Source: Wenyingzhuangia gilva (GTDB taxonomy: Bacteria > Bacteroidota > Bacteroidia > Flavobacteriales > Flavobacteriaceae). From it: a DNA stretch of 64,000 nucleotides. The stretch's first letter is position 1, and each line of letters starts with the position of its first letter. A model generated the notes under the pieces. That model made no database searches. It saw nothing but the letters and a program-made list of their open reading frames with translations, and had not been told where the DNA came from. Shown here in pieces: positions 6,148-37,803 of the stretch. The stretch covers positions 62,001 to 126,000 of the forward strand of contig NZ_JAUMIT010000003.1 of NCBI RefSeq assembly GCF_030519655.1, given 5' to 3'. Both the position numbers and the translations under genes were made by a program.

Positions 6148-6164
6148 GATAAGTCCTTTTTTTA

Positions 6165-9269: not shown

Positions 9270-9691
9270 AATTTAGTCTTTTAGTTAATAAATATGTTTT
9301 TTATGAATTAATTGTATGTTAAATCTATAAATGATTTATTCCTTTTTATTATTATTTCGACCAATGACAGTTCTTAAATGGTGTTGGTACAATTTTAAGC
9401 TTTTTCATGATAAAAAATCGTTTATTTGAAAGTTGTTTAAAATATTTTTTAGCTAGAACTCCTTGATATTAAAGGAGTAAGTGATGTTTGTGTGAGATTG
9501 AAAGAACTGATTTATGCTGTAAAAAAAAGTGTTTAATCGCATGTTTTTTGTTGTGATTTACTCAATATTGTTAGACGAAACACTTGAGTGTTACTTTCAA
9601 ATGTGATTTTTATTTTAATTAAACTTTAAATAATAATTCTTTTCTAAGCTCTAAGTATTTTTTTAAGTATTTAATACTGTAGAGAATTCAT
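9270..9691. other. Long upstream region of susC
   Basis: This gap of about 420 bases holds the susC leader, the shared PUL element at 9352-9379 and a small hairpin AACACT-TG-AGTGTT at 9579-9592. The remaining 300 or so bases between the element and the terminator at 9692 contain no reading frame I would call. Small RNAs are known next to susC genes in Bacteroides, but I see no decisive promoter-terminator pair for one here. Confidence 0.5.
9352..9379 (-). promoter_or_regulatory. Shared PUL element, copy A (upstream of susC)
   Basis: On the minus strand the core reads GTCATTGGTCGAAA, matching the shared core GTTAYTRGTCGAAA at 13 of 14 positions and preceded by a TTTAAG tract as in the other copies. 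It lies about 85-110 bases before the susC start. It is a candidate activator site. Confidence 0.6.
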
Positions 9692-9730
9692 AAAAAAATG
9701 CCAGAGAAAATTTTTTCTCTGGCATTTTTC
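9692..9730 (-). terminator. Intrinsic terminator of the 12-gene glycosidase operon
   Basis: The arms AATGCCAGAGAAAA and TTTTCTCTGGCATT pair perfectly, and A and T runs flank the stem. It lies about 30 bases after the GH3 stop codon on the minus strand and marks the end of the long operon before the susC promoter region. Confidence 0.85.
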
Positions 9731-9760
9731 AACTTCATGATATAAACTATATGCTTTTGT

Positions 9761-12406
9761 TTATTTTGTAACCGTAAAAGTAGTTTTTAATAAATTTATA
9801 GAATTTCCTCCCACCATTACTTCAAAGTCTCCTGGTTCTACAACACGAACCATGTCTCTGTTCCAAATAGATAATTCTTCTGGAGTAAGCGTGAATTGAA
9901 TGTGTTTTGTTTCTCCCTTTTTGATAAAAACTCTTTCAAAACCTTTTAGTGTTTTTTGTGGAGTAGTTACACTGCTGTAAATATCATTAATGTATAATTG
10001 AACTACTTCATCTCCGTCGTAATCACCAGTGTTTTTAACATCAACACCTACAACAACACTTCCATCAGTTTTGATTTTATCTTTACTTAAGGTAAGGTTG
10101 GAATATTCAAAACTAGTATAGCTTAATCCGTAACCAAAAGTGTACAGTGGATTTTCACTCTCACTTACATATCTGTGAATAGCAGATGGTTTTTGATTGT
10201 AATAAATTGGCAATTGTCCAACTGATTTAGGGAAAGTAATTGGATTTTTTCCTCCAGGATTGTAATCCCCAAAAATAACATCCGCTACTGCTTTACCTCC
10301 AGCTTCACCAGGAAACCATCCTTCTAAAATAGCAGGAATGTTTTCATTAATCCAATTTACAGATAATGGACGACCGTTTAACAATACACAAACTACTGGA
10401 GTTCCTGTTTTTTGAATAGCTTCTATTAATTCTTGTTGCATTCCGTGTAAATCTAAAGTAGCAACATCTCTGTTTTCTTCTACCAATTCTCTAGATTCTC
10501 CTAAAACAACAACTGCTACATCTGCTTTTTTAGCAATGTTAATAGCAGGTTGTAAGTTGATTTTTTCTAAGTTCCATCTTAGGTGAGCTCTGGCTCCCCA
10601 ACCACCTTCCCACATTTCTATGCGGACTTTGTATTTTTTACCAGCTTCAATTTTCTTTGGAGTTGTTACAATGCTTGTAGCTCCTTTGGTCCAATTGTCA
10701 ATGACTAATTGATCATCAATCCACATTCTAATTCCATCATCAGAACTTAAACCAATCCATCCATCAAAAGAAGTATCAGATTTGATAAACCCTGTCCAAC
10801 GAATAGAAAAATCATCATCATTAACCCCTACACCAGGATTCCAAGGCCAGTCAAATTGTAATTTATCGTCAATACGAGTTAAGGCTGGTTTACCTTCAAC
10901 ATTTCTATTGTTAAAATATTCTCCTTTTAATCCGTTTTGAGATTCATCAGGGGTAAACAAGTATTTTGATGGAATAATTTGTCCTTTTACAATTAAAGGA
11001 ACTCCTTCTTCATATAAAACTTCAGTATTTTTTCCAGCAACTTCTTTAATTCCTTGTAAAACCGTAGTGGCTACTTTATTCTTTACAGAATATCCACCTA
11101 AACGAGAAGCATCAGCATTAGGACCAATAACCGCAATGGTTTTGATGTCTTTACTTAATGGCAATAAATTATTTTTGTTTTTTAATAAAGTGATAGACTT
11201 ACGTCCTGCTTCTAAAACAATTTCTTGATTTTCTTTTGAATGAAATCTTTCTTTGATTAAGTTTTTAGCAGTGTAAGGATTTTCAAATAATCCTAATAAA
11301 AATTTTAATCTTAAAACACCACCTGCGGCACGATCAATATCTGCCATAGAAAGTTCTCCTTTTTTTACCAAATCAACAATGGTTTCTTGCCAAAATTCAT
11401 TGGTAAAATCATAGAACTGCATATCAACACCAGCAGCCACTGCTTGACGGATACTTTCTCTAGGTGAGTTTGCAGCGTAATGAGTGGTTTGAATATATTT
11501 AATTGCTCCTAAATCAGATACTACAATTCCTTTGAATCCCCATTCTTTTCTTAAAACATCAGTTAACAACCAATGATTGGCAGCACAAGGAATTCCATCT
11601 AATTCAGAATAAGCACACATGGTTCCTAAAGCACCACCTTTGGTAAATACTTTTTCAAATGATGGTAAAAAATCTTGACGAGCAGTACGCTCTCCAACTA
11701 AAACAGGTGATGAATTTCCACCTGCTTCTGGTTGACTATGAACAGCAAAATGTTTAGGTTCTGCAATAATTGATCTGTCTGAAGCTAAAGTATCACCTTG
11801 CATTCCTTTTACCATAGACAATCCAAGTTCTCCTGCTAAGTAAGTGTCTTCACCAAAAGTTTCGGCAACACGTCCCCAACGAGGTTCACGACCAATTCCT
11901 AACACAGGACCTAATCCAAAATGTACCCCATGAGCTCTAGCCTCAGCACCAATAACACCTCCAACTTTTTCCATTAATTGAGTATCCCAAGTAGCTCCTA
12001 AACCTATATTCATAGGAAAAGCAGTACTTCCTTCATCTAAATATCCGTGAAGCATTTCACACATAATTAATGCAGGAATTCCCCATTGGTTACTTTTAAT
12101 CACATTTTTTTGAAGGTCGTTAATCATTTTGGCAGAACGAGGGTAGATGTCGTGAATAGCACCCACACCAAGATTTCCAATTTTATTTTTGGTTTTTGTT
12201 TTAGAGAAATTTTCATCTTCTTTAAAATATTCTCCTTTGTACATATCCATTTGACGTACTTTTTCCTCTAAGCTCATTCTGCTTAATAAGTCTGTTAAAC
12301 GCTCCTCAACAGGAAGTGTAGCATCTTGATACGGATATTTTTTTTGAGCAAATCCTTGGTTTAAAAATCCAAGAAAAACTACTAAAGCAATCGTTATCTT
12401 CTTCAT
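9761..12406 (-). CDS. Glycoside hydrolase family 3 with PA14 insert
   Basis: This 881-residue secreted enzyme has a signal peptide ending near AQ at residue 21. The N-terminal GH3 barrel has KHFAVHS (218-224) and the nucleophile Asp298 in VVSDLGA. The second GH3 domain (from about 400) is interrupted by a PA14 domain at about 490-615, and a fibronectin III-like domain closes the protein. GH3 enzymes remove terminal beta-linked sugars (glucose, xylose, GlcNAc). The specificity cannot be read from sequence. Because GH3 beta-1,2-xylosidases act on plant N-glycans in other bacteria, a role against core xylose is a reasonable hypothesis. It is the last gene of the operon, 13 bases after the GH92 gene. 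Confidence 0.9.
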   Translation of the reverse strand: MKKITIALVVFLGFLNQGFAQKKYPYQDATLPVEERLTDLLSRMSLEEKVRQMDMYKGEYFKEDENFSKTKTKNKIGNLGVGAIHDIYPRSAKMINDLQKNVIKSNQWGIPALIMCEMLHGYLDEGSTAFPMNIGLGATWDTQLMEKVGGVIGAEARAHGVHFGLGPVLGIGREPRWGRVAETFGEDTYLAGELGLSMVKGMQGDTLASDRSIIAEPKHFAVHSQPEAGGNSSPVLVGERTARQDFLPSFEKVFTKGGALGTMCAYSELDGIPCAANHWLLTDVLRKEWGFKGIVVSDLGAIKYIQTTHYAANSPRESIRQAVAAGVDMQFYDFTNEFWQETIVDLVKKGELSMADIDRAAGGVLRLKFLLGLFENPYTAKNLIKERFHSKENQEIVLEAGRKSITLLKNKNNLLPLSKDIKTIAVIGPNADASRLGGYSVKNKVATTVLQGIKEVAGKNTEVLYEEGVPLIVKGQIIPSKYLFTPDESQNGLKGEYFNNRNVEGKPALTRIDDKLQFDWPWNPGVGVNDDDFSIRWTGFIKSDTSFDGWIGLSSDDGIRMWIDDQLVIDNWTKGATSIVTTPKKIEAGKKYKVRIEMWEGGWGARAHLRWNLEKINLQPAINIAKKADVAVVVLGESRELVEENRDVATLDLHGMQQELIEAIQKTGTPVVCVLLNGRPLSVNWINENIPAILEGWFPGEAGGKAVADVIFGDYNPGGKNPITFPKSVGQLPIYYNQKPSAIHRYVSESENPLYTFGYGLSYTSFEYSNLTLSKDKIKTDGSVVVGVDVKNTGDYDGDEVVQLYINDIYSSVTTPQKTLKGFERVFIKKGETKHIQFTLTPEELSIWNRDMVRVVEPGDFEVMVGGNSINLLKTTFTVTK

Positions 12407-12419
12407 TTTGTTTGTTGTT

Positions 12420-14669
12420 TTAATTTTGAATCACGTTTAAAGTGTGTCCATTTACTAACTCGTCGTGTGTAATAAAGTAACCTTTAAATTCTTTTCCGTT
12501 TAATTCAATTTTTTTGATGTTACCGTTATTATTGGTTTCTTTTGTGATGACAATATTTTTATTTTGATAATATTCTGAGTTTAACTCAATTGTAATTTTA
12601 TCGAACATAGGTGTGGTGATGGTGTAATTTGGTTCTCCTGGTGTAATAGGGTAGAAGCCCATCATACTGTAAATTAACCAAGCCGACATTGTTCCTGTAT
12701 CATCATTACCTGGTAAACCATCAGGTGTATTTTTAAAGTATTCTTTGACTAATTTTTGCACTAATTTTTGACTTCTGTGTTCCTCTCCTTTGATGTAGTT
12801 AAACAAGTAAGGGTAGGCGATGTCTGGTTCATTAGCCATATCAAATTGTTTGTCATCAAAAATCTTTTGTAATTGGTTTGTAAAACCTTTTTTACCTCCC
12901 ATTAACTTTATCAACCCCTTGATGTCATGAGGAGTCATAAAGGCATACTGCCAAGCATTTCCTTCAATAAAACCAATGTTTTCTTCAAAATTTGCTCCAG
13001 CATTAGGATCAAATGGTTCGTAAAAAGAACCATCGCTATTTCTAGGATGTAATGATTTTAAATTTTTATCATATAATTTTCTGTAAGAAATGGATCTCTT
13101 TTTAAAACGTTTGTAATCTTTTTGGTGACCTAATTCTTTTGCTAATAATGAAATGGCATAGTCTGAAGCATTATACTCTTGAGTAGTTGATACTGATCCT
13201 TTTTCATCGGTAGTTACATATCCTTTTTCAATATAATTTTTAAGCCCATTACGCAAAGGATTTCCTTTAATGGTATCGGCTCCTTTTAACATAGCAGCAT
13301 AAGCTTTTTTTACATCAAAATCTTTTATTCCTTTTAAGTAAGTATCAGTAATAACAATTCCTGCAGGGTCTCCCACCATGGTAAATGTTTCAGTAGAGTT
13401 TAATTCCCATCTTGGTAGCCAACCGTTTTCATCAGACATGTCAATAATACTTTTAACCATGTTAGATTGTTGTTTTGGATATACCAAAGACATCAATTGA
13501 TGTAAATTTCTGTAAGTATCCCATAAAGAAAATACGGTATAACGAGTTCCATCGGTTTTTCCAATCTTCCCTGTTTTTATTTCAGGATATTCTCCATTAA
13601 AATCATTTAAAGTATTAGGGTGAATTAAGGTGTGGTACAAAGCGGTATAAAAAATGGTTTTATCATCTTCTGAACCTCCTTCAACTTTAATTCTAGAAAG
13701 TAATTGATTCCATTCATTTTTTGTTTCCGTGTAAACGGCATCAAATGTTTTAGTTTGAGTTTCTTTTTCTAAGTTCTCACGAGCGTTTTCTATACTTACA
13801 TATGATACTCCAATTTTAACTTCTACCGTTTGGGGGTTGTTAAAATCATAAGAAAAATAAGTCCCAATACTATCTCCAACAACCATTTTGGTGTTGTTTT
13901 TCATCATACGAGTTTTTCCGTTATAACCCATCCATTGTGCTTCAACACCTTTATAAGTCGCTGGTTTTTTCCAAACGCCAAAATCATCTGCGGGTTTAGA
14001 AAATTTAGCCACAAAATAAACAGGATATGCATCTTCTGGATTGTAATAACAAAAAGAACCAACGCTTCTGACTCCTTCAATTTCTGTAGGAGAAACAATT
14101 TTAACCATAGCACCTTCTTCATTGGTAAGTCCAAGACCAAGGTTTAATAATAGGTTAGATTTTCCTTTAGGAAAAGTAAATTTACTCACCCCAACTCTCT
14201 TAGTTGTGGTAAATTCAGCTTTCACATTATATTTATCAATGGTTGAGCTATAGTACCCGGCTTTTGAAATTTCGTTAGAATAAGTAGAACCATATTTTAA
14301 ATGATTGGTTTCTACTTCTCCTGTAGTTGGCATTAATAAAAGCACTCCTAATTCTGGACACCCAACACCACTTAAATTTACTTGTGAAAATCCAGTTAAA
14401 AAAGTATTCTCGTGTACATAAGGAGTAGATAACCAACCACTATCTTTTTCCAAAGGTAAATTTTTAGGCCCTGCAACGTTAAAAGGACTAATACTGGCCA
14501 TACCTCTTGGGGCAATTGGGCCAGGATAAGTAGCTCCAAAATTGGAAGTACCAATCATAGGATTAACATAGTCTACAGGTTGTTGTGCGTAAAAACTAGA
14601 GCAGCACATAAGTGCTACTCCTATAGAAAAAGATTTTACGGCTGCGCTAGTTTTGTGAATAAAGTACAT
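12420..14669 (-). CDS. GH92 alpha-mannosidase (copy 1)
   Basis: The 749-residue protein has an N-terminal signal peptide (cleavage near YAQQ, residue 30) and the GH92 fold throughout, starting at VDYVNPMIGTSNFGATYPG. The C-terminal catalytic signature is GNDDTGTMSAW, carrying the acidic residues of these calcium-dependent inverting exo-alpha-mannosidases. It differs from the second GH92 of this locus at substrate-facing positions (NEPDIAYPY here, NEPSHHIAY there, and a less conserved N-terminal glycine loop). The two probably cleave different mannose linkages. It starts 4 bases after the GH29 stop, so the two are translationally close. It probably trims alpha-mannose from N-glycan arms in the periplasm. 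Confidence 0.92.
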   Translation of the reverse strand: MYFIHKTSAAVKSFSIGVALMCCSSFYAQQPVDYVNPMIGTSNFGATYPGPIAPRGMASISPFNVAGPKNLPLEKDSGWLSTPYVHENTFLTGFSQVNLSGVGCPELGVLLLMPTTGEVETNHLKYGSTYSNEISKAGYYSSTIDKYNVKAEFTTTKRVGVSKFTFPKGKSNLLLNLGLGLTNEEGAMVKIVSPTEIEGVRSVGSFCYYNPEDAYPVYFVAKFSKPADDFGVWKKPATYKGVEAQWMGYNGKTRMMKNNTKMVVGDSIGTYFSYDFNNPQTVEVKIGVSYVSIENARENLEKETQTKTFDAVYTETKNEWNQLLSRIKVEGGSEDDKTIFYTALYHTLIHPNTLNDFNGEYPEIKTGKIGKTDGTRYTVFSLWDTYRNLHQLMSLVYPKQQSNMVKSIIDMSDENGWLPRWELNSTETFTMVGDPAGIVITDTYLKGIKDFDVKKAYAAMLKGADTIKGNPLRNGLKNYIEKGYVTTDEKGSVSTTQEYNASDYAISLLAKELGHQKDYKRFKKRSISYRKLYDKNLKSLHPRNSDGSFYEPFDPNAGANFEENIGFIEGNAWQYAFMTPHDIKGLIKLMGGKKGFTNQLQKIFDDKQFDMANEPDIAYPYLFNYIKGEEHRSQKLVQKLVKEYFKNTPDGLPGNDDTGTMSAWLIYSMMGFYPITPGEPNYTITTPMFDKITIELNSEYYQNKNIVITKETNNNGNIKKIELNGKEFKGYFITHDELVNGHTLNVIQN

Positions 14670-14673
14670 ATAA

Positions 14674-16158
14674 TTATCTAATTATTTTGTCAATTTTTAA
14701 GGTCCAAGCCTCTTTACAAGGTAAGCTGTTTCTTAGTTTTTCAGGAATGGTAACTTTAAATCCTTCATCTAATTTTTCCCACTTTAACTTGGTTTTAGAA
14801 CCTAACATGGTAATTTTAGTTCCTTTTTTAGGATTGATTGATTTTACAATAATTTCAGACGGAATGGTGTTTTCACCTTCTTTAGCCATGTAAAACAAGA
14901 ACACATTTTCTTTTTTGTTTTGTGTCATACAAATATTGTCTTCTTTAAAAGGAGCAATTGGTTTTGTGTTGTAAATAGCACTTCCATTTACATCTAACCA
15001 AGCACCATAATCAGCCAATAAATCATAAGCACCTTGTTGCCAAGTTCCATCAGGTCCTGGAGCAACATTTAACAATAAATTACCACCTTTGGCAACCACA
15101 TCAATTAACATATGAATTCCTTGTCTACCTGTTAAGTATTTAGCATCTGGCGTATAAGACCATCCACCTCCTGAGGTAATACATGACTCCCAAGGATAAG
15201 GCAAAGTTTTTTCAGGAACTCTGTTTTCTGGTGTTAAGTAGTTTTGATTTTTACCGTGTACAGCTCTGTCAACCACAATTAAACCTGGTTGTTTTTGACG
15301 AGCTTTTACTACCAATTCATCCATTTTAATGTCTTGATCTACCACTCTGTGTTTGATAAATCCGTTTTCAGATTTGTTTTCAAGAAATTTAGCGGTATAT
15401 CCTTGTTTAATTTCTTCTTTAGGTGTTTTGGCAACCCATCCACCATCTAACCATAAAATATCTATGCTTCCGTAATTTGTTAACAATTCTAAAATTTGGT
15501 TATGAGTAAAATCAACATACTTTTGCCACTTTTTAGGATAAGCAGCAGGGTTGTAATTTACATTTCTATCAAAAGGAGGGAAGTAAGGATCCCAGTAGTT
15601 TTCGTTATGCCAGTCTGGTTTAGAGAAATATGCTCCAATCCACATGTCTTCATTTCTAAAAGCACTAAATACTTCTTTAGCAATATTTGCTTTAGGGTTG
15701 GTGCTAAAAGGAACATCTGAATTTGTTACTTTATAATCAGAATATTGGGTGTCAAACATATTAAAACCATCATGGTGTTTGGTGGTAAAAACCATGTATT
15801 TCATTCCAGCATCTTTAGCAGCTTTTGCCCATTTTGTAGGATCGAATTTTGTAGGGTTAAAAGATTTTCTTAAATCTTCATAATCCTTTACGTATTGGTT
15901 ATAGTTATCAGGATTACTTCCTTTTTTGCGTTCACACCATCCGTAATCTTCTGGACAAATAGACCATGATTCTACAATTCCCCACTGGCTATAAGTTCCC
16001 CAGTGCATTAATAGTCCGAATTTTTTATCTTGCCACTGATCTAGTTTTTCTAGTACTAACGGGTCTGTTTCAGGCACATATCTTTCATCTTCATAAATGG
16101 CTTGTGAAAATAATTGAGCCGAAAACAGTAGGGCTAACATTGCTATTGATTTCTTCAT
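14674..16158 (-). CDS. GH29 alpha-L-fucosidase (copy 1)
   Basis: This 494-residue enzyme has a signal peptide ending near residue 19. The GH29 landmarks are FGLLMHWGTYS (47-57), TKHHDGF (126-132) and the nucleophile Asp238 in DILWLDGG. A small beta-sandwich follows from about residue 400. It should hydrolyse terminal or core alpha-L-fucose from glycans in the periplasm. It is shorter than the other fucosidase of this window and has no carbohydrate-binding modules. It is cotranscribed with GH20 upstream (63-base gap) and GH92 downstream (4-base gap). The linkage (alpha-1,2, 1,3, 1,4 or 1,6) cannot be settled from sequence. Confidence 0.93.
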   Translation of the reverse strand: MKKSIAMLALLFSAQLFSQAIYEDERYVPETDPLVLEKLDQWQDKKFGLLMHWGTYSQWGIVESWSICPEDYGWCERKKGSNPDNYNQYVKDYEDLRKSFNPTKFDPTKWAKAAKDAGMKYMVFTTKHHDGFNMFDTQYSDYKVTNSDVPFSTNPKANIAKEVFSAFRNEDMWIGAYFSKPDWHNENYWDPYFPPFDRNVNYNPAAYPKKWQKYVDFTHNQILELLTNYGSIDILWLDGGWVAKTPKEEIKQGYTAKFLENKSENGFIKHRVVDQDIKMDELVVKARQKQPGLIVVDRAVHGKNQNYLTPENRVPEKTLPYPWESCITSGGGWSYTPDAKYLTGRQGIHMLIDVVAKGGNLLLNVAPGPDGTWQQGAYDLLADYGAWLDVNGSAIYNTKPIAPFKEDNICMTQNKKENVFLFYMAKEGENTIPSEIIVKSINPKKGTKITMLGSKTKLKWEKLDEGFKVTIPEKLRNSLPCKEAWTLKIDKIIR

Positions 16159-16221
16159 TGTTTTTCTGTTTTTGATTTAATATATAACTAACTATTTCTT
16201 TTTTATTTTGATTGAGGAATA

Positions 16222-18543: not shown

Positions 18544-18544
18544 A

Positions 18545-22718
<4,174 letters not shown>

Positions 22719-22745
22719 GATATTAAGTTTTATGAGTCCTTGTTA

Positions 22746-23834: not shown

Positions 23835-23861
23835 AATTTATGGGTAGGTATTTGTTAGTTT

Positions 23862-24980: not shown

Positions 24981-25036
24981 TTGTGATGTATGATTTAATT
25001 GGTTTGCTATTAAAATTAACTGTTTTTTATTAATTT

Positions 25037-26107: not shown

Positions 26108-26110
26108 ATT

Positions 26111-27076: not shown

Positions 27077-27119
27077 TGTATGTTTCTTTTATTAATTTAT
27101 TTTGTTTTTGTTTATTTTT

Positions 27120-28997: not shown

Positions 28998-29033
28998 GCT
29001 CAGTATAGTTTTATGTTGATTATTTCTTAGATT

Positions 29034-31277
29034 TTACTTGTTAACAGTTCCCCAATTTTTATTAGGTGTAGCTCCCATGACAAATTTTAAGGTTCCACCT
29101 TTCATGATTTGTTGATGAGAAATAGAAGTGTTGTTAAATGCTTGATTGTTTAGTGTTGCAGATTGGATGTAAATATTTTTATCTGAAACATTTTCTGCCT
29201 TAATAACAAAGGTTTTATTATTGGCAAGTTTGATGGTAGATTTTTCAAATATTGGACTTCCAATTTCGTAATCTCCAGAAGCAGGATTCATAGGGTATAA
29301 ACCTATAGAACTAAAAACATACCAAGCAGACATTTGTCCACAATCTTCATTTCCACTTAATCCATTAGGAGTTGTGTTATATTGAGTATCTAAAATATGA
29401 CGAACCCAATATTGTGTTCTCCATGGTTGATTGGCATGATTAAACATGTAAGCAATGTGGTGACTAGGTTCGTTTCCATGTGCATATTGACCAATCAATC
29501 CAGAAATATCAGCAGAAATATTATTACCAGTTATTTCAGAACTTTCGGTAAATAATTGTTCTAATCTTGTGGTGAAAATTTCATCACCACCATGTAATGA
29601 AATAAAGTTGTCTACATTATGAGGGACAAACCAACTGTGTTGCCAAGCATTTCCTTCGGTATAATCTGTCTGTTCTCTGTGATTAGAATGTTTAGGATCA
29701 AAAGGTTCGTTCCATGATTTTCCATCTTTAGATTTTCCTCTCATGAATCCTGTTTTAGCATCAAATAAGTACTCATAAGCTTTAGAACGATTTAAGAAAA
29801 ATTCATAGTCTTCCATTTCTCCTAATTCTTTAGCCATTTGTGCCACACACCAATCATCATAAGCATATTCAAGCGTAATGGTTACAGATTCATCTAACAA
29901 TTCATAAGGAATGTATCCGTACTCTTTATAATAATTTAAACCACGTTCGTCTTGCATCATGGTTGTTTTCATCGCTTCGTAAGCTTTTTCGATATCAAAT
30001 CCTTTGATTCCATTTTTATAAGCATTTACAATAACTGGAATAGAATGATATCCTGTCATGGTATTGGTTTCATTGGCATACAATGTCCATACAGGTAAAA
30101 TTTTATGGGTTTCATAATAGGCCAACATAGAGTTGATAATATCAGAGGTTTTATCTGGGGCTATAATAGACAATAAAGGATTTTCTGCTCTAAAAGTGTC
30201 CCAAAGAGATAAAGTAGAATAGGCTATATAATTATTAGCAGTTTCTATTGCATCATTTTCTTTTCTAAATTGACCATTTTGATCACTAAAAGTTACAGGA
30301 GCCAATTGTGTATGATACATAGCTGTGTAAAAAATAGTTTTAAGAGAATCTATTGGAGTTTCTACTTGTATATTAGACAAAGCGTTTTCCCAAATATTAT
30401 TGGCGTTAGATTTTGTGTTGTCAAAATTTAAATCTGTATCTAAATTTTCTTTGGCATTGTTAATGCTTACTGATGATACGGCTACTTTTACCAACAATTC
30501 ATCACTATCTTCTGTGTTAAAAAATAATTGTGATTTTGTTTTTTCAGCTTTTACAGTCGTTCCATCAACACTTTCTTGATTGGCTACTAAACTATAATGA
30601 GCTATTGGCTTAGAAAATTCTGCAACAAAAAATACTTTTTGATTTTTAGCCCATCCTTTACTAAAACGATAACCACTAATGGTATATTCATTTTCTATGT
30701 TGATTTGTGTATCTAAAGCAGTGTCCCAGTTGATAGCAAAACCTAAATCTAACACGACTGATTGCTCATCATTTTTAGTAAAAGTATATTTATGATAAGC
30801 GGTTCTTAGTGAAGATGTTAACTCAACGTTAATCTTAGGAGTTTCTAAAAAGACTTGATAATATCCAGGCTTAGAAGTCTCGTTGTTATGACTGTATGTA
30901 GATTTATAAGGAATAGAATCTCTGTTTTTGGTGTCAATAGTTAAGTCAACTTTTTTGTTGGAAGGCATCAATAAAATATCTGCCAAGTCTCCAATTCCAG
31001 TTCCACTTAAGTGTAAGTGACTAAAACCAACCATAATAGAATCTGTATAATGATAACCAGAACACCAATCCCAGCTAGAAATTCCATTGTCAGGACTTAC
31101 TTGTAACATACCAAAAGGAACGGTTGCTCCTGGGTAAGTATGTCCGTGACCACCTGTTCCTATAAAAGGATTTACTTCATTTGTAAATGTTTGTTTATTA
31201 GTATTCTTACTAGTTGTGTTATTTTTGCAACTAGTTATAAAAACCAATAATAAAATAGATAATTTAAAGTTCTTCAT
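29034..31277 (-). CDS. GH92 alpha-mannosidase lipoprotein (copy 2), first gene of the operon
   Basis: The 747-residue protein carries a lipobox cysteine at residue 17 (ITSC). The GH92 hallmarks are GTGGHGHTYPGATVPFG near residues 41-57, HGNEPSHHIAY near 616-626 and the catalytic GNEDCGQMSAWY near 660. These match the better-known exo-alpha-mannosidases of this family more closely than copy 1 does. It probably removes alpha-1,2 or alpha-1,3-linked mannose from high-mannose or trimmed N-glycans. It heads the 12-gene operon and is divergent from the LytS/LytTR genes. A diverged copy of the shared PUL element lies 55-83 bases upstream. Confidence 0.94.
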   Translation of the reverse strand: MKNFKLSILLLVFITSCKNNTTSKNTNKQTFTNEVNPFIGTGGHGHTYPGATVPFGMLQVSPDNGISSWDWCSGYHYTDSIMVGFSHLHLSGTGIGDLADILLMPSNKKVDLTIDTKNRDSIPYKSTYSHNNETSKPGYYQVFLETPKINVELTSSLRTAYHKYTFTKNDEQSVVLDLGFAINWDTALDTQINIENEYTISGYRFSKGWAKNQKVFFVAEFSKPIAHYSLVANQESVDGTTVKAEKTKSQLFFNTEDSDELLVKVAVSSVSINNAKENLDTDLNFDNTKSNANNIWENALSNIQVETPIDSLKTIFYTAMYHTQLAPVTFSDQNGQFRKENDAIETANNYIAYSTLSLWDTFRAENPLLSIIAPDKTSDIINSMLAYYETHKILPVWTLYANETNTMTGYHSIPVIVNAYKNGIKGFDIEKAYEAMKTTMMQDERGLNYYKEYGYIPYELLDESVTITLEYAYDDWCVAQMAKELGEMEDYEFFLNRSKAYEYLFDAKTGFMRGKSKDGKSWNEPFDPKHSNHREQTDYTEGNAWQHSWFVPHNVDNFISLHGGDEIFTTRLEQLFTESSEITGNNISADISGLIGQYAHGNEPSHHIAYMFNHANQPWRTQYWVRHILDTQYNTTPNGLSGNEDCGQMSAWYVFSSIGLYPMNPASGDYEIGSPIFEKSTIKLANNKTFVIKAENVSDKNIYIQSATLNNQAFNNTSISHQQIMKGGTLKFVMGATPNKNWGTVNK

Positions 31278-31332
31278 AGTGGTTTAACATTATTTAAGTA
31301 TAAATTTTCATTAATTTTACGTTTTATAAAAG

Positions 31333-31360
31333 TAATTTAGACGGATAACACGTTTACATC
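31333..31360 (-). promoter_or_regulatory. Shared PUL element, copy D (between GH92 and lytS genes)
   Basis: The minus strand reads GTTATCCGTCTAAA, 11 of 14 matches to the shared core and the most diverged of the four copies. It sits in the 123-base divergent region, so a factor bound here could control the long operon, the two-component genes, or both. Confidence 0.4.
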
Positions 31361-31400
31361 CCTAAACACCAAAAAACTCAATTTTTAATCTTTTTATCGA

Positions 31401-32459
31401 ATGAATTCTGACGATATTAAAATATATAGAATATCTTGGTATTACCATGTTATATTCTGGGTCATCTATTTTTTATTTAACACCTTTCGTTGGGGAAGTT
31501 ATTTTGATGATTATTTGTATTCATTAAAAACAAACTTATTGGGTTTTCCCATTCACATGGCCTTGTGTTACCTAAATATTTTTGTATTGATGCCTTTACT
31601 TATTTATAGAAAGAAATACTTTTTATATGTTATTTCTGTTTTATCAGCCATATTTATCATGGTAATGGTTAAGTTTAATTTAACCTATTTTTTAATAAGT
31701 CATAATGTTTGGCCGGAAGGCCCAAAACCTATTGACAGATTATCTCTTAACTACACGATAGATATGATGATAGGGGAGTTGTATGTTGTTGCATTTGTAG
31801 CTGCTATAAAAATAACTTTAGACTTTTTAAAAGAACACAGAAGAGTATCTGATTTAGAAAAAATACAATTACAAACAGAATTGTTGTTTTTAAAAAATCA
31901 GATTTCTCCACATTTCTTTTTTAACACATTAAACAATATTTATTCGATGGCAGTTGTGCAATCTAAAAATACTCCAAGAATAATTTTGAAGCTATCGGAG
32001 TTAATGCGTTATTTGTTATATGAAACAAGAGGAACTAGGCAAACATTAGAAAACGAAATTCTTTGTATTCAAAATTACTTAGATTTAGAAAGGGTTAGGC
32101 ATAGTGAATCTTTAGAGGTTAAGGTGAAAGTTTCTGGTGATATTCAAGACAAAGAAATTGCCCCTATACTGTTGTTAACTTTTGTTGAAAACGCTTTTAA
32201 ACACGGAGCAAATAAAAACATAGGAAAAGTAAAAATTAATATTAAATTTAAAATTGTTGAAGATTTTTTATACTTCTCAATTTCCAATCCATTACCAAGT
32301 GTTACAGAACATAAAGACAATTTAAAACAGTCAAGTGGAATTGGTTTAGAAAATGTTAAAAAAAGGCTAGAATTAGGATATCATAAAAAGGATTATAATT
32401 TAAAACTTAAGAGTAAAGAGAATAAATTTATTGTTAAGCTTAAAATTAAAGTCGGTTAA
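31401..32459 (+). CDS. LytS-type sensor histidine kinase
   Basis: The 352-residue protein has four hydrophobic membrane segments in the first 140 residues, with little room for a periplasmic sensor. A His_kinase domain follows with the phospho-acceptor His171 in QISPHFFFN, then an ATPase domain with the G box GIGLENVKKRLEL near residues 313-325. Such kinases partner LytTR response regulators, one of which follows 60 bases downstream. The genes lie head to head with the N-glycan operon, so this pair is the best local candidate for its regulator. The usual PUL regulator, a hybrid two-component protein with a periplasmic sensor, is absent from the window. Confidence 0.9.
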   Translation: MNSDDIKIYRISWYYHVIFWVIYFLFNTFRWGSYFDDYLYSLKTNLLGFPIHMALCYLNIFVLMPLLIYRKKYFLYVISVLSAIFIMVMVKFNLTYFLISHNVWPEGPKPIDRLSLNYTIDMMIGELYVVAFVAAIKITLDFLKEHRRVSDLEKIQLQTELLFLKNQISPHFFFNTLNNIYSMAVVQSKNTPRIILKLSELMRYLLYETRGTRQTLENEILCIQNYLDLERVRHSESLEVKVKVSGDIQDKEIAPILLLTFVENAFKHGANKNIGKVKINIKFKIVEDFLYFSISNPLPSVTEHKDNLKQSSGIGLENVKKRLELGYHKKDYNLKLKSKENKFIVKLKIKVG

Positions 32460-32519
32460 AGAAATTTTATAACAAAGAACTTTTTTTGTTTGATGGCAGA
32501 AAAGATATTATGGAAGTAT

Positions 32520-33236
32520 ATGAAAATAAAATGTTTAATTATTGATGATGAACCTCTAGCAATTAACATCATAGAGAACTATTTAGAAAAAATAGAAAAC
32601 TTTGAAATTGTTAATACGTTTGGAAATGCAATAGATGGTTTAAACTTTTTAAAAAATAATTCAGTAGATGTTATTTTTTTAGATATCAACATGCCTGTTT
32701 TAGATGGAATAAATTTTATTAAAAGTTTAGAGGAACCTCCCTTACTAGTCATTACAAGTGCTTATGATGAATTTGCTATTGAAACATATGAATTAGATGT
32801 ATTGGATTATTTGGTGAAACCTATTGAGTTTCCAAGGTTTATGAAATCTTTAAATAAGATAGAAAGAAGGTTAGATTCATCAACCAAACCTTCTGGGACA
32901 GAGAGTTCAAAAGAACGATCTTTTCTTTTTGTAAAGATTGATAAAAAGAAAATGAAAAAAATCTTTTTAGATGAAATATTGGTGATAGAAAGTTTAAAAG
33001 ATTACTTAAAAATCAACACAACTTCAGGAAGATATATTGTACATAGTACTTTAACAGATTTTACTAATTTATTGCCTTCAAGAGATTTTATAAGAATACA
33101 TCGATCTTATACTGTAGCCATTGATAAAATTGATGCAGTAGAAGGAAATAGCATAGAAATAGAAGGTTTAAGATATGTAATTGGTAGGTCTTATTTAGAG
33201 GAGGCCAAGCAAAAAATACTGAACTCTTCTATATAA
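32520..33236 (+). CDS. LytTR-family response regulator
   Basis: The protein has a receiver domain (residues 1-115, acidic pair DD at 9-10, phospho-acceptor Asp55 in FLDINMP, Lys in DYLVKPI) and a LytTR DNA-binding domain (about 135-238, with FVKIDKKKMKK, DYLKI and FIRIHRSY). I chose the ATG at 32520 because receiver domains begin MKIKCLIIDDE. Upstream in-frame starts at 32490 (TTG) and 32493 (ATG) would add about ten residues unlike the family. Known LytTR proteins bind direct repeats in promoter DNA. It pairs with the LytS-type kinase upstream and probably regulates the adjacent PUL. Confidence 0.9.
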   Translation: MKIKCLIIDDEPLAINIIENYLEKIENFEIVNTFGNAIDGLNFLKNNSVDVIFLDINMPVLDGINFIKSLEEPPLLVITSAYDEFAIETYELDVLDYLVKPIEFPRFMKSLNKIERRLDSSTKPSGTESSKERSFLFVKIDKKKMKKIFLDEILVIESLKDYLKINTTSGRYIVHSTLTDFTNLLPSRDFIRIHRSYTVAIDKIDAVEGNSIEIEGLRYVIGRSYLEEAKQKILNSSI

Positions 33237-33241
33237 ACAAA

Positions 33242-33275
33242 AAGAAGGTTGCCACTCCTGACAACCTTCAAAAAC
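33242..33275 (-). terminator. Intrinsic terminator between convergent lytTR and nagB genes
   Basis: The arms GAAGGTTG (33244-33251) and CAACCTTC (33262-33269) pair perfectly. On the minus strand the stem is followed by TTTTTGTTT, fitting the end of the nagB-lmbE transcript. It may also stop the regulator transcript less efficiently. Confidence 0.7.
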
Positions 33276-33323
33276 TTAACTTAATAAAACTCAAACTAAT
33301 ACTAAACTAAAAGTATTAATATC

Positions 33324-35237
33324 TTAAAAATGATAGCGCTTAAATGCTTCAATTGCAGCATAATCTGCTAAGCCTAAATCATTGTATTTTTTTGCTGTTT
33401 CTCTATTTCTATCTTCAGCTCTTACCCAAAACTCTCTAGCATCATCTCCTTGAAACATGACTCCATCTTTTTGAGATTGATGATAAAAAATAGCATGACG
33501 TTTTTTTAATACTTGGTCTGGACTCATAGGTACCGCCATTTCAATTTGGTAGGTTTCCCATTCATGCCAAGCTCCACGATATAACCAAACCCAACAGTCG
33601 TTCATAAAACTTTTTGGTTTCAAGACTTTTAAAGCTTCAAACAAACTGTCTAAACATACTTTATGTGTCCCGTGTGGGTCTGCCAAATCTCCAGCGGCAT
33701 AAATTTGATGTGGTTTTATATTTTCTATCAAATCACACATAATTTTAATATCAGCTTCTGATAAATTGTCTTTTTTTACCGTACCTGTTTCGTAAAAAGG
33801 AAGATTTAAAAAATGTACATTTTCATCGGGAACGCCCATGTATCTGGTTGCTCCTAATGATTCACTCCTTCTAATCCATCCTTTTAAGCGTCTAACTTCT
33901 ACAGAGTCAATATCGTTTTTAGATTTGTTTTTTAAGAACTCTATAATGTTTTCTGATTCCGTTGAAGAAGCATTTAAAAAAGTAGAGACTTCTGCAAATT
34001 TTAAAGCTTCTTCGTTTGAAACGGCTATGTTTCCCGAAGTTTGATAAGCAACATGAACTTCATGACCTTGTTCCACCAAACGATTAAAAGTACCTCCCAT
34101 AGAAATCACATCATCATCGGGGTGAGGACTAAAAATAATGACTCTTTTTTTGTCTGGGATAGCACGTTCTGGTCTATTTGTATCATCGGCATTGGGTTTT
34201 CCTCCAGGCCAACCAGTTATAGTGTGCTGTAATTTGTTAAACATTTCTATGTTTAAATCATAAGCGCTTCCCTCTTTTGCAATTAAAGGAGACATTCCGT
34301 GATCGTTATAATCTTTGTCAGTTAATTTTAAAAAAGGCTTTTGGGTCAATTCACATAACCAAATAACCGCTTTGGCTTTTAATTCTTCTGTCCAAATACA
34401 TGATTTTACCAACCAAGGCGTTTGTACTCTTGTCAGTGCTGATGAAGCCTCACTATCTAAAACAAAACTTGTATTGTTATGTTCTTGCAAATAGGTAGCA
34501 GGAACATTTGAGGTGATTTCTCCTTCAATGGCCTTTTTAATTACTTTAGCTTTGCTAATTCCCCATCCTAAAAGCACAATTCTTTTGGCTCTTCTAATGG
34601 TGTCAATTCCCATGGTAATTGCTTTTCTAGGTACATTGTCTATTCCTAAAAAAGAAGAAGCGGCATCTCTACGAGTAACATGGTCTAAAGTAACGTGTCT
34701 TGTTCCAGAATTGATATGTGAACCAGGCTCATTAAATCCAATATGTCCTGTTCTTCCAATTCCTAAAAGTTGAAAATCAATTCCTCCATAAGATTTAATT
34801 TTCATATCATAATCAATACAATATTGTCTAATTTCTTCAAAGCAAACCGTTCCGTCGGGAATGTTAATATTTTCAGGAAGAATATCAATATGATTAAAAA
34901 GATGGTCATGCATAAAGTAATGATAACTTTGAATGTTGTTTTTATCCATAGGATAATATTCATCCAAATTAAAAGTCACTACGTTTTTAAAACTCAAACC
35001 TTCTTCCTTATGTAATCTAACAAGTTCTTCATAAACTTTAATAGGAGATGATCCTGTAGACAACCCAAGTACACATGGTTCGTTTATTTCTTCTTTACGT
35101 TCAATTAAATTTGCTATTTCTTTGGCAACAAGTATTGAAGCTTCCAAAGAGGATTCAAAAATAATATTGTGAATTTTCTCAAAACGAGTTTCTTCAAATT
35201 TTCCAGCTTCCTTATAATGTATTCCTTCTTTATTCAT
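33324..35237 (-). CDS. nagB: Fused glucosamine-6-phosphate deaminase-like and LmbE/PIG-L deacetylase-like protein
   Basis: The 637-residue protein joins two enzyme folds. Residues about 25-290 match glucosamine-6-phosphate deaminase (GLSTGSSP 58-65, LDEYYP 91-96, GIGRTGHIGFNEPGS 159-173). Residues about 365-560 match LmbE/PIG-L zinc deacetylases, with PHPDDD at 371-376 and DPHGTH further on. This two-domain form is characteristic of Bacteroidota. The first domain should convert GlcN-6-P to fructose-6-P and ammonia, and the second could deacetylate GlcNAc-6-P or a related amide. There is no signal peptide. It fits the final use of GlcNAc released by this PUL. It has its own promoter element and a shared PUL element upstream. 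Confidence 0.9.
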   Translation of the reverse strand: MNKEGIHYKEAGKFEETRFEKIHNIIFESSLEASILVAKEIANLIERKEEINEPCVLGLSTGSSPIKVYEELVRLHKEEGLSFKNVVTFNLDEYYPMDKNNIQSYHYFMHDHLFNHIDILPENINIPDGTVCFEEIRQYCIDYDMKIKSYGGIDFQLLGIGRTGHIGFNEPGSHINSGTRHVTLDHVTRRDAASSFLGIDNVPRKAITMGIDTIRRAKRIVLLGWGISKAKVIKKAIEGEITSNVPATYLQEHNNTSFVLDSEASSALTRVQTPWLVKSCIWTEELKAKAVIWLCELTQKPFLKLTDKDYNDHGMSPLIAKEGSAYDLNIEMFNKLQHTITGWPGGKPNADDTNRPERAIPDKKRVIIFSPHPDDDVISMGGTFNRLVEQGHEVHVAYQTSGNIAVSNEEALKFAEVSTFLNASSTESENIIEFLKNKSKNDIDSVEVRRLKGWIRRSESLGATRYMGVPDENVHFLNLPFYETGTVKKDNLSEADIKIMCDLIENIKPHQIYAAGDLADPHGTHKVCLDSLFEALKVLKPKSFMNDCWVWLYRGAWHEWETYQIEMAVPMSPDQVLKKRHAIFYHQSQKDGVMFQGDDAREFWVRAEDRNRETAKKYNDLGLADYAAIEAFKRYHF

Positions 35238-35272
35238 ATTTTGGATTGCTAATTTTTTATACCAAAATTACT

Positions 35273-35280
35273 TACTATGT
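35273..35280 (-). promoter_or_regulatory. Bacteroidota -7 promoter element (TAATTTTG) for nagB
   Basis: A perfect TAnnTTTG match on the minus strand, 36 bases before the nagB start. The shared PUL element (copy C) begins 16 bases upstream of it, the same arrangement as at the GH29 promoter at 37483. Confidence 0.55.
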
Positions 35281-35295
35281 ATCTTTTTTGTGATA

Positions 35296-35322
35296 TAAAT
35301 TCGACTAGTAACCATTTTAAAG
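35296..35322 (-). promoter_or_regulatory. Shared PUL element, copy C (upstream of nagB)
   Basis: The minus strand reads GTTACTAGTCGAAT, matching 13 of 14 core positions, preceded by a TTTAAAA tract one base closer than in copies A and B. It overlaps the place expected for the -33 region of the TAATTTTG promoter, a typical activator position. Confidence 0.65.
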
Positions 35323-35344
35323 CCCTAAAGGAGTGATGTTTAAT

Positions 35345-37450
35345 TTATTTATCTTCTAATACACCAATTTCTCCAATAGCAACACTGTTTGAATTTCCGA
35401 TAGATGCCTTGGCTACAAATTTCAAGTATCTGGCTTTACAGCTTTTAAAGGTTTTTATTTGTTCTATAGGGTTATTTTTGATGTTAGAAAACTCTCCTGC
35501 TGATTGTTTGATCCATTTTGTTTTGTTGATACTTGTATAAAATTCATATTTAGAAATTAAATACAAATTACTTCCTACCTGTTGAGGGAAATAAGTAAAT
35601 CCGTTAATGGTTAATTGACTTCCCATGTCAATGATAATTTCTTGTGGAAGTTTATGTTCATCACTTCCTAATCCCCAAGTAGTTCTTGGGTTTCCATCAA
35701 TAATTTTATCAGCAGTGTTTAAATCACCACTAGTAGCAGTAACAACCTTCCACTTTTCTTTTGATTTTCCATAGTTTGATGCTGTTACAGCACTAAAAAT
35801 ATTTTCTTGAGAATTAAAACTAATGGCTTTTATTTTTACAGCCTCATTGTATATAAATGGTTTTTTGTATAATAAACTATTGATTGTTGGGGTAGAACCA
35901 TCTAGGGTGTAAAATATTTTATTTTTCTTGTTTGTAGTTAAAGTTACCAAGCCGTTTTTGTTACGCGCTATACTTGGTGAATGTACCAAGGTAGGGGCGT
36001 TGTAAGCTTTGATAGCTGAAATTACTAAACATCCTTTAGCATCGGTAATGTTAACTTTAATAGCATTTGCTTTGATACGAGGAAATCTAAGAATTCTTTT
36101 GTATCCAATAGTAGTTTCGTTAGCTATGGTTTTCCATACTCCATTGATATTGGCTTGCACATTAAAAGTTTTAACACGTTGACCTAGTTTTACATATTCT
36201 TGTAAAAGCAATCTGTTGATATCCGTAGGTTGATTAAATTCAAAAGTAATTGAGGCCGATTTAATACTGTCATTGGTAGCCCAATAATTATCTTTTTGAT
36301 TGTTGATTACATTTTCTGCAGCATAAGTATCATCATTACCACGCACATCAGTAGCAGATACTTTACTGTTAACAAGTAATTCAGTTTTAAAATCAGCTTT
36401 AATAATCGCGGCTAATTCTTTTAATCGGGCTTCATCATGTTCATTTACAAGTCCTCTTTTGTCTATAGGAATGTTTAATAAAAGATTGGCATTTCTACCA
36501 ATAGACTCATAATAAATGTCAACCATTTCTTCAATAGGTCTTACTTTGTCATCTTCTACTTCATGATAAAACCATCCAGGTCTTGTAGAAACATCAGCTT
36601 CTCCTGGCACCCATTTTTCACCATCAATATGTCCTTGCATAAATTCGGTATAATGAACTTTTCCAGCCAATTCATCTTTTTGGCGTAGTGGAGCCCAATT
36701 GGTTTTACCAGCTCTTCCTTCTTCATTCCCAATCCATCTTGCTTCTGATGGACCAACTCCCCAAGTAAGCGTATTAGGAGAAAGATCATATATCATTTTA
36801 TAAGTCTCTTCCCAATTGTAATATTCTAAGGTGTTAATTTTTCTCATTTCATTGGCACCACCATAATACCCATCACCTCCATTAGCACCATCAAACCAAA
36901 TTTCAAAAACATCTCCATAATTGGTTAATAGTTCTTTTAGCTGATTTCTAAAATAAGTGATATAACCTGGTTTTCCGTATTCTGGGTGATTTCTATCCCA
37001 TGGAGAAAGATAGATTCCTAATTTTAATCCGTATTCTTTACAAGCTTCAGCCAACTCTTTAACCACATCTCCTTGACCATTTTTCCATGGAGAATTTTTA
37101 ACGGAGCGTTCTGTATAAGCCGATGGCCATAAACAAAAACCATCGTGGTGTTTGGCGGTAATAATAATACCCTTCATTCCTGCTTCTTTTACAATTCTTG
37201 CCCATTGTCTGGTATCTAAAGCAGATGGGTTGAAAAGTTCAGGAGATTCATCACCATATCCCCATTCCTTATTAGTAAAGGTGTTTAATGAAAAATGGGT
37301 AAATGCATAAAACTGCATGTCGTGCCATTTTAACTGTTTCTCAGATGGAATAGGGGTAATTGCTGTTGGAGGAGCAACAGGAGTTTTACAACTACTAAAA
37401 AAAACTAAAGCACTAGCAATAAGAATAGAGGGAATAATATTTTTTATCAT
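35345..37450 (-). CDS. GH29 alpha-L-fucosidase with C-terminal discoidin modules (copy 2)
   Basis: This 701-residue lipoprotein (SSC, cysteine 21) has a GH29 barrel in the first 350 residues, with TAKHHDGFCLWPS (98-110) and the nucleophile Asp187 in FEIWFDGANGG. After the barrel come a discoidin-like module (about 355-480), a chitobiase C-terminal-like segment (YTLDGSTPT near 510) and a second discoidin module (about 565-701). The barrel type resembles the GH29 subgroup that prefers alpha-1,3/1,4-linked, branched fucose. It would remove antennal or alpha-1,3 core fucose. No terminator follows it, so transcription may continue into nagB. Confidence 0.92.
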   Translation of the reverse strand: MIKNIIPSILIASALVFFSSCKTPVAPPTAITPIPSEKQLKWHDMQFYAFTHFSLNTFTNKEWGYGDESPELFNPSALDTRQWARIVKEAGMKGIIITAKHHDGFCLWPSAYTERSVKNSPWKNGQGDVVKELAEACKEYGLKLGIYLSPWDRNHPEYGKPGYITYFRNQLKELLTNYGDVFEIWFDGANGGDGYYGGANEMRKINTLEYYNWEETYKMIYDLSPNTLTWGVGPSEARWIGNEEGRAGKTNWAPLRQKDELAGKVHYTEFMQGHIDGEKWVPGEADVSTRPGWFYHEVEDDKVRPIEEMVDIYYESIGRNANLLLNIPIDKRGLVNEHDEARLKELAAIIKADFKTELLVNSKVSATDVRGNDDTYAAENVINNQKDNYWATNDSIKSASITFEFNQPTDINRLLLQEYVKLGQRVKTFNVQANINGVWKTIANETTIGYKRILRFPRIKANAIKVNITDAKGCLVISAIKAYNAPTLVHSPSIARNKNGLVTLTTNKKNKIFYTLDGSTPTINSLLYKKPFIYNEAVKIKAISFNSQENIFSAVTASNYGKSKEKWKVVTATSGDLNTADKIIDGNPRTTWGLGSDEHKLPQEIIIDMGSQLTINGFTYFPQQVGSNLYLISKYEFYTSINKTKWIKQSAGEFSNIKNNPIEQIKTFKSCKARYLKFVAKASIGNSNSVAIGEIGVLEDK

Positions 37451-37482
37451 GATAAATGTTTTAGCAAGTAATACGCTAATAT

Positions 37483-37490
37483 CAAAATTA
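37483..37490 (-). promoter_or_regulatory. Bacteroidota -7 promoter element (TAATTTTG) for GH29 copy 2
   Basis: A perfect TAnnTTTG match on the minus strand, 33 bases before the start. Copy B of the shared element starts 18 bases upstream of it. Confidence 0.55.
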
Positions 37491-37507
37491 ATAAAGATAA
37501 ATACTTA

Positions 37508-37535
37508 CTATTTCGACTAATAACGGTTTTTAAAG
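37508..37535 (-). promoter_or_regulatory. Shared PUL element, copy B (upstream of GH29 copy 2)
   Basis: On the minus strand this copy reads GTTATTAGTCGAAA, a full match to the core, preceded by TTTAAAAACC. Spacing to the TAATTTTG element is within two bases of that for copy C, which supports a functional promoter architecture rather than chance AT-rich similarity. Confidence 0.65.
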
Positions 37536-37803
37536 TCTATTGGATGTTTTGGTTGTTGGTAAACACAATATTTAGGAATGAAAAAAAGTGCAATATTTTA
37601 TACAAATGACTTTTATTTACTAGTTATTTTAATAGTTTGATATTTTTATATTATCACTTTTGTCAATATTGTAAAAAAAGTTTTTAATAGCTTAATTTGT
37701 ATCCTTTAGATTGTTATTTTTATCCTTCGTCGAAAAAAGAGATATCATGTATTTTATAAAACTTAATTTCATGATTCATAAAAATTAAACTCAAAAAATA
37801 AAT

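Follow-up and report, generated by a model that had tools for sequence, protein, structure and literature searches.

Locus and element

The window, a stretch of 64,000 nucleotides from Wenyingzhuangia gilva (contig NZ_JAUMIT010000003.1 of a genome of 3.35 Mb in 33 contigs), carries a candidate N-glycan utilization locus, in which a short DNA element recurs before several transcription units and is probably the operator of a two-component system encoded in the same place. The Pfam domains of the open reading frames (ORFs) delimit this locus at 3107-39111. It holds SusC and SusD, enzymes of the glycoside hydrolase (GH) families GH92, GH18, GH20, GH130, GH29 and GH2 and an asparaginase-like protein, a gene set that in a polysaccharide utilization locus (PUL) signifies N-glycan use. 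A membrane sensor histidine kinase (HK) and a LytTR response regulator (RR) form a gene pair (31401-33236) that is divergent from the minus-strand gene run from GH92 to GH3. Next to the susC end of the PUL, at 618-2352, lie a LuxR-type regulator gene (618-1349, with a weak PAS match) and a gene for a protein with a DnaA-like ATPase domain. The coordinates of the transcription units, which are presumed, and of the putative operator parts are collected in the table.

The element was first recognized as four copies of a core, GTTAYTRGTCGAAA, in a prediction made by a model from the letters of the window (hereafter the original prediction). The four copies indeed lie on the minus strand before susC, GH92, nagB-lmbE and the second copy of GH29, with 1, 3, 1 and 0 mismatches, respectively, and all core ends, including that of fucP, fall 58-85 nt ahead of start codons. 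What had been described as a partial match before fucP is a weaker, probable fifth copy on the plus strand, with a good upstream half, ATCCTTTAGA. The TTTAA-rich tract proposed as the upstream part of the element had to be abandoned, since the conserved part is instead a half-site at -21 to -12 with the consensus GTYSTTTAGC, which reads CTCCTTTAGG before nagB and GGTGTTTAGG before GH92, and is degenerate before susC and GH29. The promoter box TAATTTTG, placed by the original prediction at 15-17 bases from the element in two cases, is found at this distance in GH29 (17 bases) and not in nagB (25 bases).

The complete site is thus a bipartite direct repeat with a period of 21 bp, GTYSTTTAGC-N11-GTYRTTNGTCKAAA. 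For its description, 91 sites were gathered from loci of 28 genomes, of which eight that were weak or had no gene context and five near-copies from the congener Wenyingzhuangia marina (G202) were dropped. The 78 retained sites comprise 49 of a class A (GTC-G-AA, as in GTCGAAA) and 29 of a class B (GTC-T-AA, as in GTCTAAA). Their column profile has G at -21, Y at -19, S at -18 and TTTAGC at -17 to -12, followed by the downstream core, whose columns are inflated by the use of a core regular expression to pick the sites; the upstream half, the 21-bp offset and the -7 box played no part in the picking. Self-similarity of the profile is best at a direct offset of -21 (-7.8 versus a mean of -21.4, sd 3.3). 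An inverted repeat visible at susC (ACCAAC...GTTGGT) was considered and rejected, the best inverted arrangement (-11.0 at -24) being weaker than the direct one and the arms, judged by eye, not being common to the other sites. The published LytTR half-site consensus was also tried by eye; it fitted poorly and was not used.

The position of the repeat relative to the promoter is a second regular feature. TAnnTTTG, given in PMC9723704 as the sigma-A -7 box of Flavobacterium, matches best over the 78 sites when it starts at +41/42 from the first core base, with a mean of 3.69 of 6 at +41 versus a maximum of 2.59 among 300 shuffles. This mean peak would place the site just upstream of the core promoter.

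Table. Predicted operator parts, presumed transcription units and regulatory genes in the window. Offsets of half-sites and -7 boxes are counted from the first core base, also on the minus strand; ranks are those of the 41-column matrix.
Feature	Positions	Strand	Remarks
susC operator, core half-site GTCATTGGTCGAAA (predicted)	9355..9368	-	85 nt before susC start; rank 3
susC operator, upstream half-site TACCAACACC (predicted)	9380..9389	-	degenerate; register of aligned sites
susC putative -7 box TAGATTTA	9320..9327	-	at +41 of core
GH92 operator, core half-site GTTATCCGTCTAAA (predicted)	31336..31349	-	class B variant; 58 nt before GH92 start; rank 1
GH92 operator, upstream half-site GGTGTTTAGG (predicted)	31361..31370	-	alignment register
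GH92 putative -7 box AAAATTTA	31301..31308	-	at +41 of core; weak match to TAnnTTTG
nagB-lmbE operator, core half-site GTTACTAGTCGAAT (predicted)	35299..35312	-	61 nt before start; rank 2
nagB-lmbE operator, upstream half-site CTCCTTTAGG (predicted)	35324..35333	-	alignment register
nagB-lmbE putative -7 box TAATTTTG	35263..35270	-	at +42 of core
GH29 copy 2 operator, core half-site GTTATTAGTCGAAA (predicted)	37511..37524	-	60 nt before start; rank 4
GH29 copy 2 operator, upstream half-site ATCCAATAGA (predicted)	37536..37545	-	degenerate; alignment register
GH29 copy 2 putative box TAATTTTG	37483..37490	-	at +34 of core, 7 bp out of the conserved register; GATATTAG at +41
fucP operator, core ATCCTTCGTCGAAA (probable, weak)	37722..37735	+	68 nt before fucP; rank 5, inside shuffle range
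fucP operator, upstream half-site ATCCTTTAGA (probable)	37701..37710	+	well matched, in register
Presumed unit 1: susC, susD, MFS transporter	3107..9269	-	from gene order
Presumed unit 2: GH92, SSF symporter, GH130, CBM9, GH18, GHL10, asparaginase-like, GH2, GH20, GH29, GH92, GH3	9761..31277	-	from close spacing
Presumed unit 3: NagB-LmbE fusion (Glucosamine_iso + PIG-L)	33324..35237	-
Presumed unit 4: GH29 copy 2	35345..37450	-
Probable fifth unit: fucP-like MFS transporter	37804..39111	+
Membrane sensor HK (PF06580)	31401..32459	+	proposed partner of the LytTR regulator
LytTR response regulator (PF00072 + PF04397)	32490..33236	+	proposed operator reader

Distribution of the element and of the LytTR regulator

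The core motif alone was rejected as evidence: it is too degenerate and, at 2-3 mismatches, no commoner than in controls, either in the window (30 matches with up to three mismatches versus 24.6 expected, a number that 16 of 100 shuffles reach and which is not significant) or in the genome (105 matches with up to two mismatches versus 157 for the reversed pattern, hence no enrichment). Stricter matches behave differently. Nine genomic matches have 0-1 mismatch, five of them within open frames of 315-718 codons and four intergenic, before susC, nagB-lmbE, GH29 and one unlinked esterase-like gene; genome-wide, intergenic matches of this quality are confined to these four genes, as befits the operator of a single regulon that had been proposed. 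The unlinked site (G000:C1:137444-137457, L002), exact in both halves (TTTAGC-N11-GTTATTTGTCGAA), stands 77 nt before a secreted-looking alpha/beta-hydrolase gene, divergent from a GH2 gene, and is retained in W. marina (G202:C2, L113). The exact core GTYRTTDGTCGAAA is present in 60 of 199 family genomes, its linkage with the regulator having been judged by eye only.

A matrix of 41 columns was trained on 73 sites of other genera, leaving out those of the window genome and of W. marina together with the eight weak or context-less sites. Over the window it places the four sites at ranks 1-4 (33.6, 29.9, 29.7 and 20.2) and the fucP site fifth (10.1), followed by a sixth match at 6.2, the best of 12 dinucleotide shuffles reaching 12.5. 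It was also applied to 72 held-out loci, that is, 80 loci from named genomes, found by regulator similarity, minus eight already in the training set. All 72 have at least one site at a score of at least 15, with 125 matches versus none for the reversed matrix. Judged by the position of the sites relative to HK and regulator, 70 of these loci have a site beyond the HK and pointing away from it, which is the GH92 position in the window, and 51 have one past the 3' end of the regulator; many belong to Flavobacterium species, so that the lineages behind these counts are not independent.

The conservation that the original prediction called for is found around the orthologous regulators of ten other genera and of W. 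marina, for which loci of at most 40 kb were read; that of G133 is cut off by a contig end. With the window included in the counts, a core match stands before SusC in 7/7 cases (a blast score of 250 bits being required, which leaves the weaker SusC matches of G121 and G173 outside the count), before GH92b in 12/12, before NagB-LmbE in 6/7 (the exception, G173, has a gene 63% alike) and before GH29b in 4/5 (the exception, G159, shows by eye a one-mismatch form). FucP is preceded by a match to the regular expression in one of five loci (G159). The five gene types internal to unit 2 (GH3, GH92a, SSF, GH20 and GH130) lack the core at all 48 starts in the 12 loci; a further GH92a entry, in G133, is a mis-assignment to GH92b at the contig end. 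Across these loci, class B stands before GH92b and class A before the other genes. In W. marina, whose regulator is 92% identical to that of the window, no nagB-lmbE match occurs within the 40-kb locus, and an orphan operator-like site lies between the regulator and GH29 (L081/L082, at about 30983 of the joined locus).

Independently of the regulator, the bipartite pattern was searched with at most one mismatch in 397 family genomes, which gave 124 matches in 76 genomes and, for the reversed control, 33 (summed by eye). A clade of regulators was delimited at E <= 1e-81, a cut set after seeing the regulator search, below which the lysine-type regulators of G348 and G160 (see the next section) fall, and 62 of the 397 genomes carry such a clade regulator. 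These 62 hold 92 matches (1.48 each) versus 32 in the other 335 (0.096 each, with a control rate of 0.083), and genomes with a match number 48/62 in the first group and 28/335 in the second (Fisher P 2e-29, a value that ignores shared ancestry). Within 60 kb of the regulator lie 68 matches versus 0.16 expected; 23 of the 62 clade genomes have none at this distance; the window genome is one of them, its own local sites deviating from the strict pattern. At the level of the genus, the exact core is found in none of five congeners without the regulator and twice in W. marina, which has it. The element and the HK/LytTR pair are therefore inherited together, with exceptions.

Co-inheritance could follow the PUL instead of the regulator, because the PUL CBM9 protein has a relative in all but one of the clade genomes as well (61/62), and the association alone cannot separate the two; another 45 genomes carry a CBM9 relative without the clade regulator. 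The main case that separates them, in part, is G108 (L138:4074-19220), where, in what seems to be another kind of locus, the clade HK-RR pair lies between a lactonase/ThuA/SBF/CBM9_2 run and SusC/SusD/FG-GAP (FG-GAP-UnbV) genes, as identified from six scanned ORFs. Sites stand before both flanking operons, and blast found no hydrolase of the window type within the 40 kb of that locus.

The probable reader of the element and its rivals

Co-inheritance, the arrangement in G108 and the repeat found beside a paralogous regulator support the LytTR protein as the reader of the element, as the original prediction had it, although this assignment is a prediction from sequence. We consider it likely, with a probability of roughly 0.84, that the HK/LytTR pair acts through this element, as its operator, to activate the N-glycan PUL.

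The paralogous HK-LytTR pair deserves a closer comparison. Among 51 regulators, 29 have one more lysine in their LytTR domain, at residue 152 of P0001, and 22 do not, and a single branch with a support of 100/100 separates the two groups. It is the group with the lysine that occurs beside the sites described here. The lysine is also present in the regulators of G348 and G160, which share about 50% identity with the query and have sites nearby. Those without the lysine belong to the paralogous pair, which often adjoins a SusC, NagB-LmbE or MFS gene (L209-L216, L218-L221); in 13 of the 19 fetched, a SusC-like or NagB-LmbE gene is divergent from the HK. Most of the intergenic regions concerned contain a direct repeat of their own, TGTTGTCTRTG-N10-TGTCGTTTATATAA, with a best offset of 21 (5.4 of 7 bases versus 4.0 at the next offset) in the nine of 13 regions with an anchor of at least 11 of 13; G030, G148, G297 and G333, with a weaker anchor, were left out of this statistic. 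The two pairs are alike in gene content (about 50% regulator identity), in the period of 21, in a shared GTYRTT part and in the placement of a repeat between divergent genes. They differ in the lysine and in the downstream half, which mostly ends in TATATAA or GTATAAA at the paralogue and in GTCKAAA here. That either sister regulator has a 21-bp repeat of its own at its side argues for the repeats being what these regulators read.

Several observations weigh against this attribution. Outside the clade, we fetched the loci of 19 of the 45 CBM9-positive genomes without a clade regulator and that of G333, which has its clade regulator on another contig. Eight of these 20 loci (L183-L189 and L191) keep a class B site before GH92 with no adjacent HK-RR, and in seven of the eight genomes there is no clade regulator at the cut-off, only the paralogue of about 50% identity elsewhere. 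In three other loci GH92 is present and the site is missing; in G030, likewise without a clade regulator, susC alone is preceded by a site; and the remaining eight lack the GH92 arrangement. The congener G200, which lacks the regulator, contains two bipartite matches with one mismatch, and the genome of G108 does have a CBM9 relative, about 125 kb away. No core match precedes the HK, in HK direction, in any of the 12 loci, and autoregulation of the HK-RR pair was rejected on this count. The promoter register is a matter of averages, with good -7 boxes (5-6 of 6) at +41 in only 15/78 sites and at +42 in only 16/78, and the box of GH29 lies off register (+34). At a low cut-off, a 19-column core matrix is poorly separated from its controls: the first loci yield 56 matches, with 34 for the reversed and 20-51 for column-permuted matrices, and the second loci yield 72, with 43 and 21-54, respectively. 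Finally, the paralogue operator of G143 reads GTTGTTTGTCTAAA, near the class B core. Because some loci keep the site without a clade regulator, the local regulator may not be the sole reader of the sites: either the paralogue would read some of them, or a divergent clade member was missed. In G222, one of the eight that lack the GH92 arrangement and whose locus has no GH92, a core-like match, GTTACTGGTCGATG, lies near a CBM9 relative (L192, at about 9784 of the flipped locus).

If not this regulator, a different one, encoded elsewhere and travelling by chance with the same PUL, could own the operator. Candidates are a hybrid two-component system of the AraC type (HTCS), the LuxR-type product of 618-1349 and some SusR-like protein. 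Bacteroides HTCS operators are also long-spaced direct repeats, with a period of about 20-21 bp (16+5, 12+9 and 14+6; PMC3878776), so that the period of 21 alone does not discriminate and does not prove LytTR control. The loci that keep a site without an adjacent HK-RR fit such a reading, as does the near-universal CBM9 relative, by which linkage to the regulator amounts to linkage to the PUL. It is nonetheless unlikely, given the sites beside HK-RR pairs with different neighbours in G108 and the related repeat of the paralogous pair; moreover, no AraC, HTCS or SusR domain was found in the 39 of the 51 window ORFs of at least 100 aa scanned with Pfam, regulators in other loci not having been searched for. 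A general promoter element, forming the upstream part of sigma-A promoters, or a chance likeness of AT-rich DNA would explain the chance-like frequency of the core at 2-3 mismatches, but hardly why strict matches cluster near one regulator, why the four sites come out on top in a scan trained on other genera, or why the reversed matrix finds nothing in 72 loci; we regard this as barely credible. Hardly better placed, and very improbable, is a conserved RNA element of the 5' leader: the sites do lie on the coding strand, shortly before start codons, but upstream of the preferred -7 box, where they would not be transcribed from that promoter, and their conservation pattern is that of a direct repeat.

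More compatible with the HK/LytTR operator, to which it would add, is the sharing of sites by the two paralogous regulators, with class B (GTCTAAA) before GH92 being read by both. The paralogue without the lysine is present in all eight genomes that keep the site and lack the adjacent HK-RR, as well as in G030, versus one of the three that have GH92 and no site, and in its sequence class B is intermediate between the GTCGAAA of class A and the paralogue sites (GTATAAA, TATATAA). On the other side, no paralogue passes the cut-off in the window genome, the 11 loci behind the comparison are few and not independent, and the class A-like site of G030, with the paralogue only, misfits a rule restricted to class B. 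We hold this sharing to be doubtful. Tentatively, and with slightly more in its favour, one may picture an ancestral HK-LytTR pair that was duplicated and split into an N-glycan regulator and a sister regulator often next to NagB, MFS or SusC genes. The operators would have diverged from a near-perfect 21-bp repeat with TATATAA/GTATAAA at its end to the asymmetric GTCKAAA form alongside the insertion of the single lysine, with class B before the GH92 core operon readable by either and N-glycan use handed to the sister where the local pair was lost.

Proposed mechanism and known systems

With the HK/LytTR pair as the owner of the operator, two regulator molecules would bind head to tail to two 10-base half-sites 21 bp apart (two helical turns), the upstream GTYSTTTAGC being the weak half and the downstream GTYRTTNGTCKAAA the strong one. 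The downstream half would sit just upstream of a sigma-A promoter, with the -7 box most often starting at +41/42 and the centre of this half about 46 bp upstream of the predicted transcription start, in the position of an activator that contacts RNA polymerase. Upon sensing its signal, the membrane kinase would phosphorylate the regulator, which would then switch on susCD-MFS, the GH92-to-GH3 operon, nagB-lmbE, GH29, probably fucP, and the unlinked esterase-like gene. The regulon would thus have four or five units in the locus and one or more far from it. Binding, phosphorylation and transcription starts are inferred here, and activation over repression is inferred from the position of the sites. 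A possible partner is the SSF symporter, whose gene adjoins GH92b in most of these loci.

The arrangement has close counterparts. Published LytTR sites are built from a pair of repeats, direct or inverted, that measure 9-11 nt each and stand 11-13 nt apart (PMC4847170), and the 10-nt halves and 11-nt spacer reported here fall within both ranges; sites of LytTR regulatory systems tend to sit about 10 bp upstream of the -35 element, according to PMC6193735. Escherichia coli YpdB at yhjX and Streptococcus mutans HdrR and BrsR have operators of the same build, in which a spacer of about 11 nt parts two direct repeats of about 10 nt immediately before the core promoter; YpdA/YpdB is, moreover, a LytS/LytTR-type kinase-regulator pair (PMC4847170, PMC6193735). 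The W. gilva element differs from all three in its sequence, in the combination of a weak upstream and a strong downstream half and in its Bacteroidota promoter of the TAnnTTTG type, and it differs from YpdB, which has one known target, in the several PUL operons predicted. HdrR and BrsR are not known to depend on a kinase of the HK type.

Among PUL regulators, the closest likeness is with the HTCS_Man operators of the Bacteroides thetaiotaomicron mannan PULs. Each of these operators is specific to a PUL for a related class of substrates and is likewise a direct repeat with a period of 21 bp; they have been attributed to hybrid two-component systems of the AraC type whose sensor domain is periplasmic (PMC3878776), whereas a separate kinase and a LytTR regulator would act here. 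The same work names HTCS, SusR-like and ECF-sigma systems as the regulators proposed for Bacteroides PULs. No published account of LytTR control of flavobacterial or N-glycan PULs was found in the literature searched, which leaves most of the subscription literature uncovered; the mechanism would thus be of an ordinary kind, in a setting for which that literature gave no description.

What the analysis offers is a predicted operator and regulon for a LytTR two-component system, resolved at the level of sequence and with a preferred promoter geometry. Relatives of the pair occur in many flavobacteria, including Flavobacterium johnsoniae, a species used in the laboratory, where sites lie on the HK side and 3' of the regulator (L244). 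Such regulons might be predicted by a simple scan, and the operator would open a route to what the kinase senses. The two sister regulators with visibly different operators are, in addition, suitable material for the study of LytTR specificity.

Some minor features of the two proteins can be added. The HK has three segments above the hydropathy cut-off, from which the real number of helices may differ. Among solved structures, the matches of the regulator within the best 60 of 223 cover the receiver domain. The ORF of the regulator begins with TTG at 32490; since most orthologues align from residues 7-12, the true start codon may be an ATG further in, for example that at 32520.

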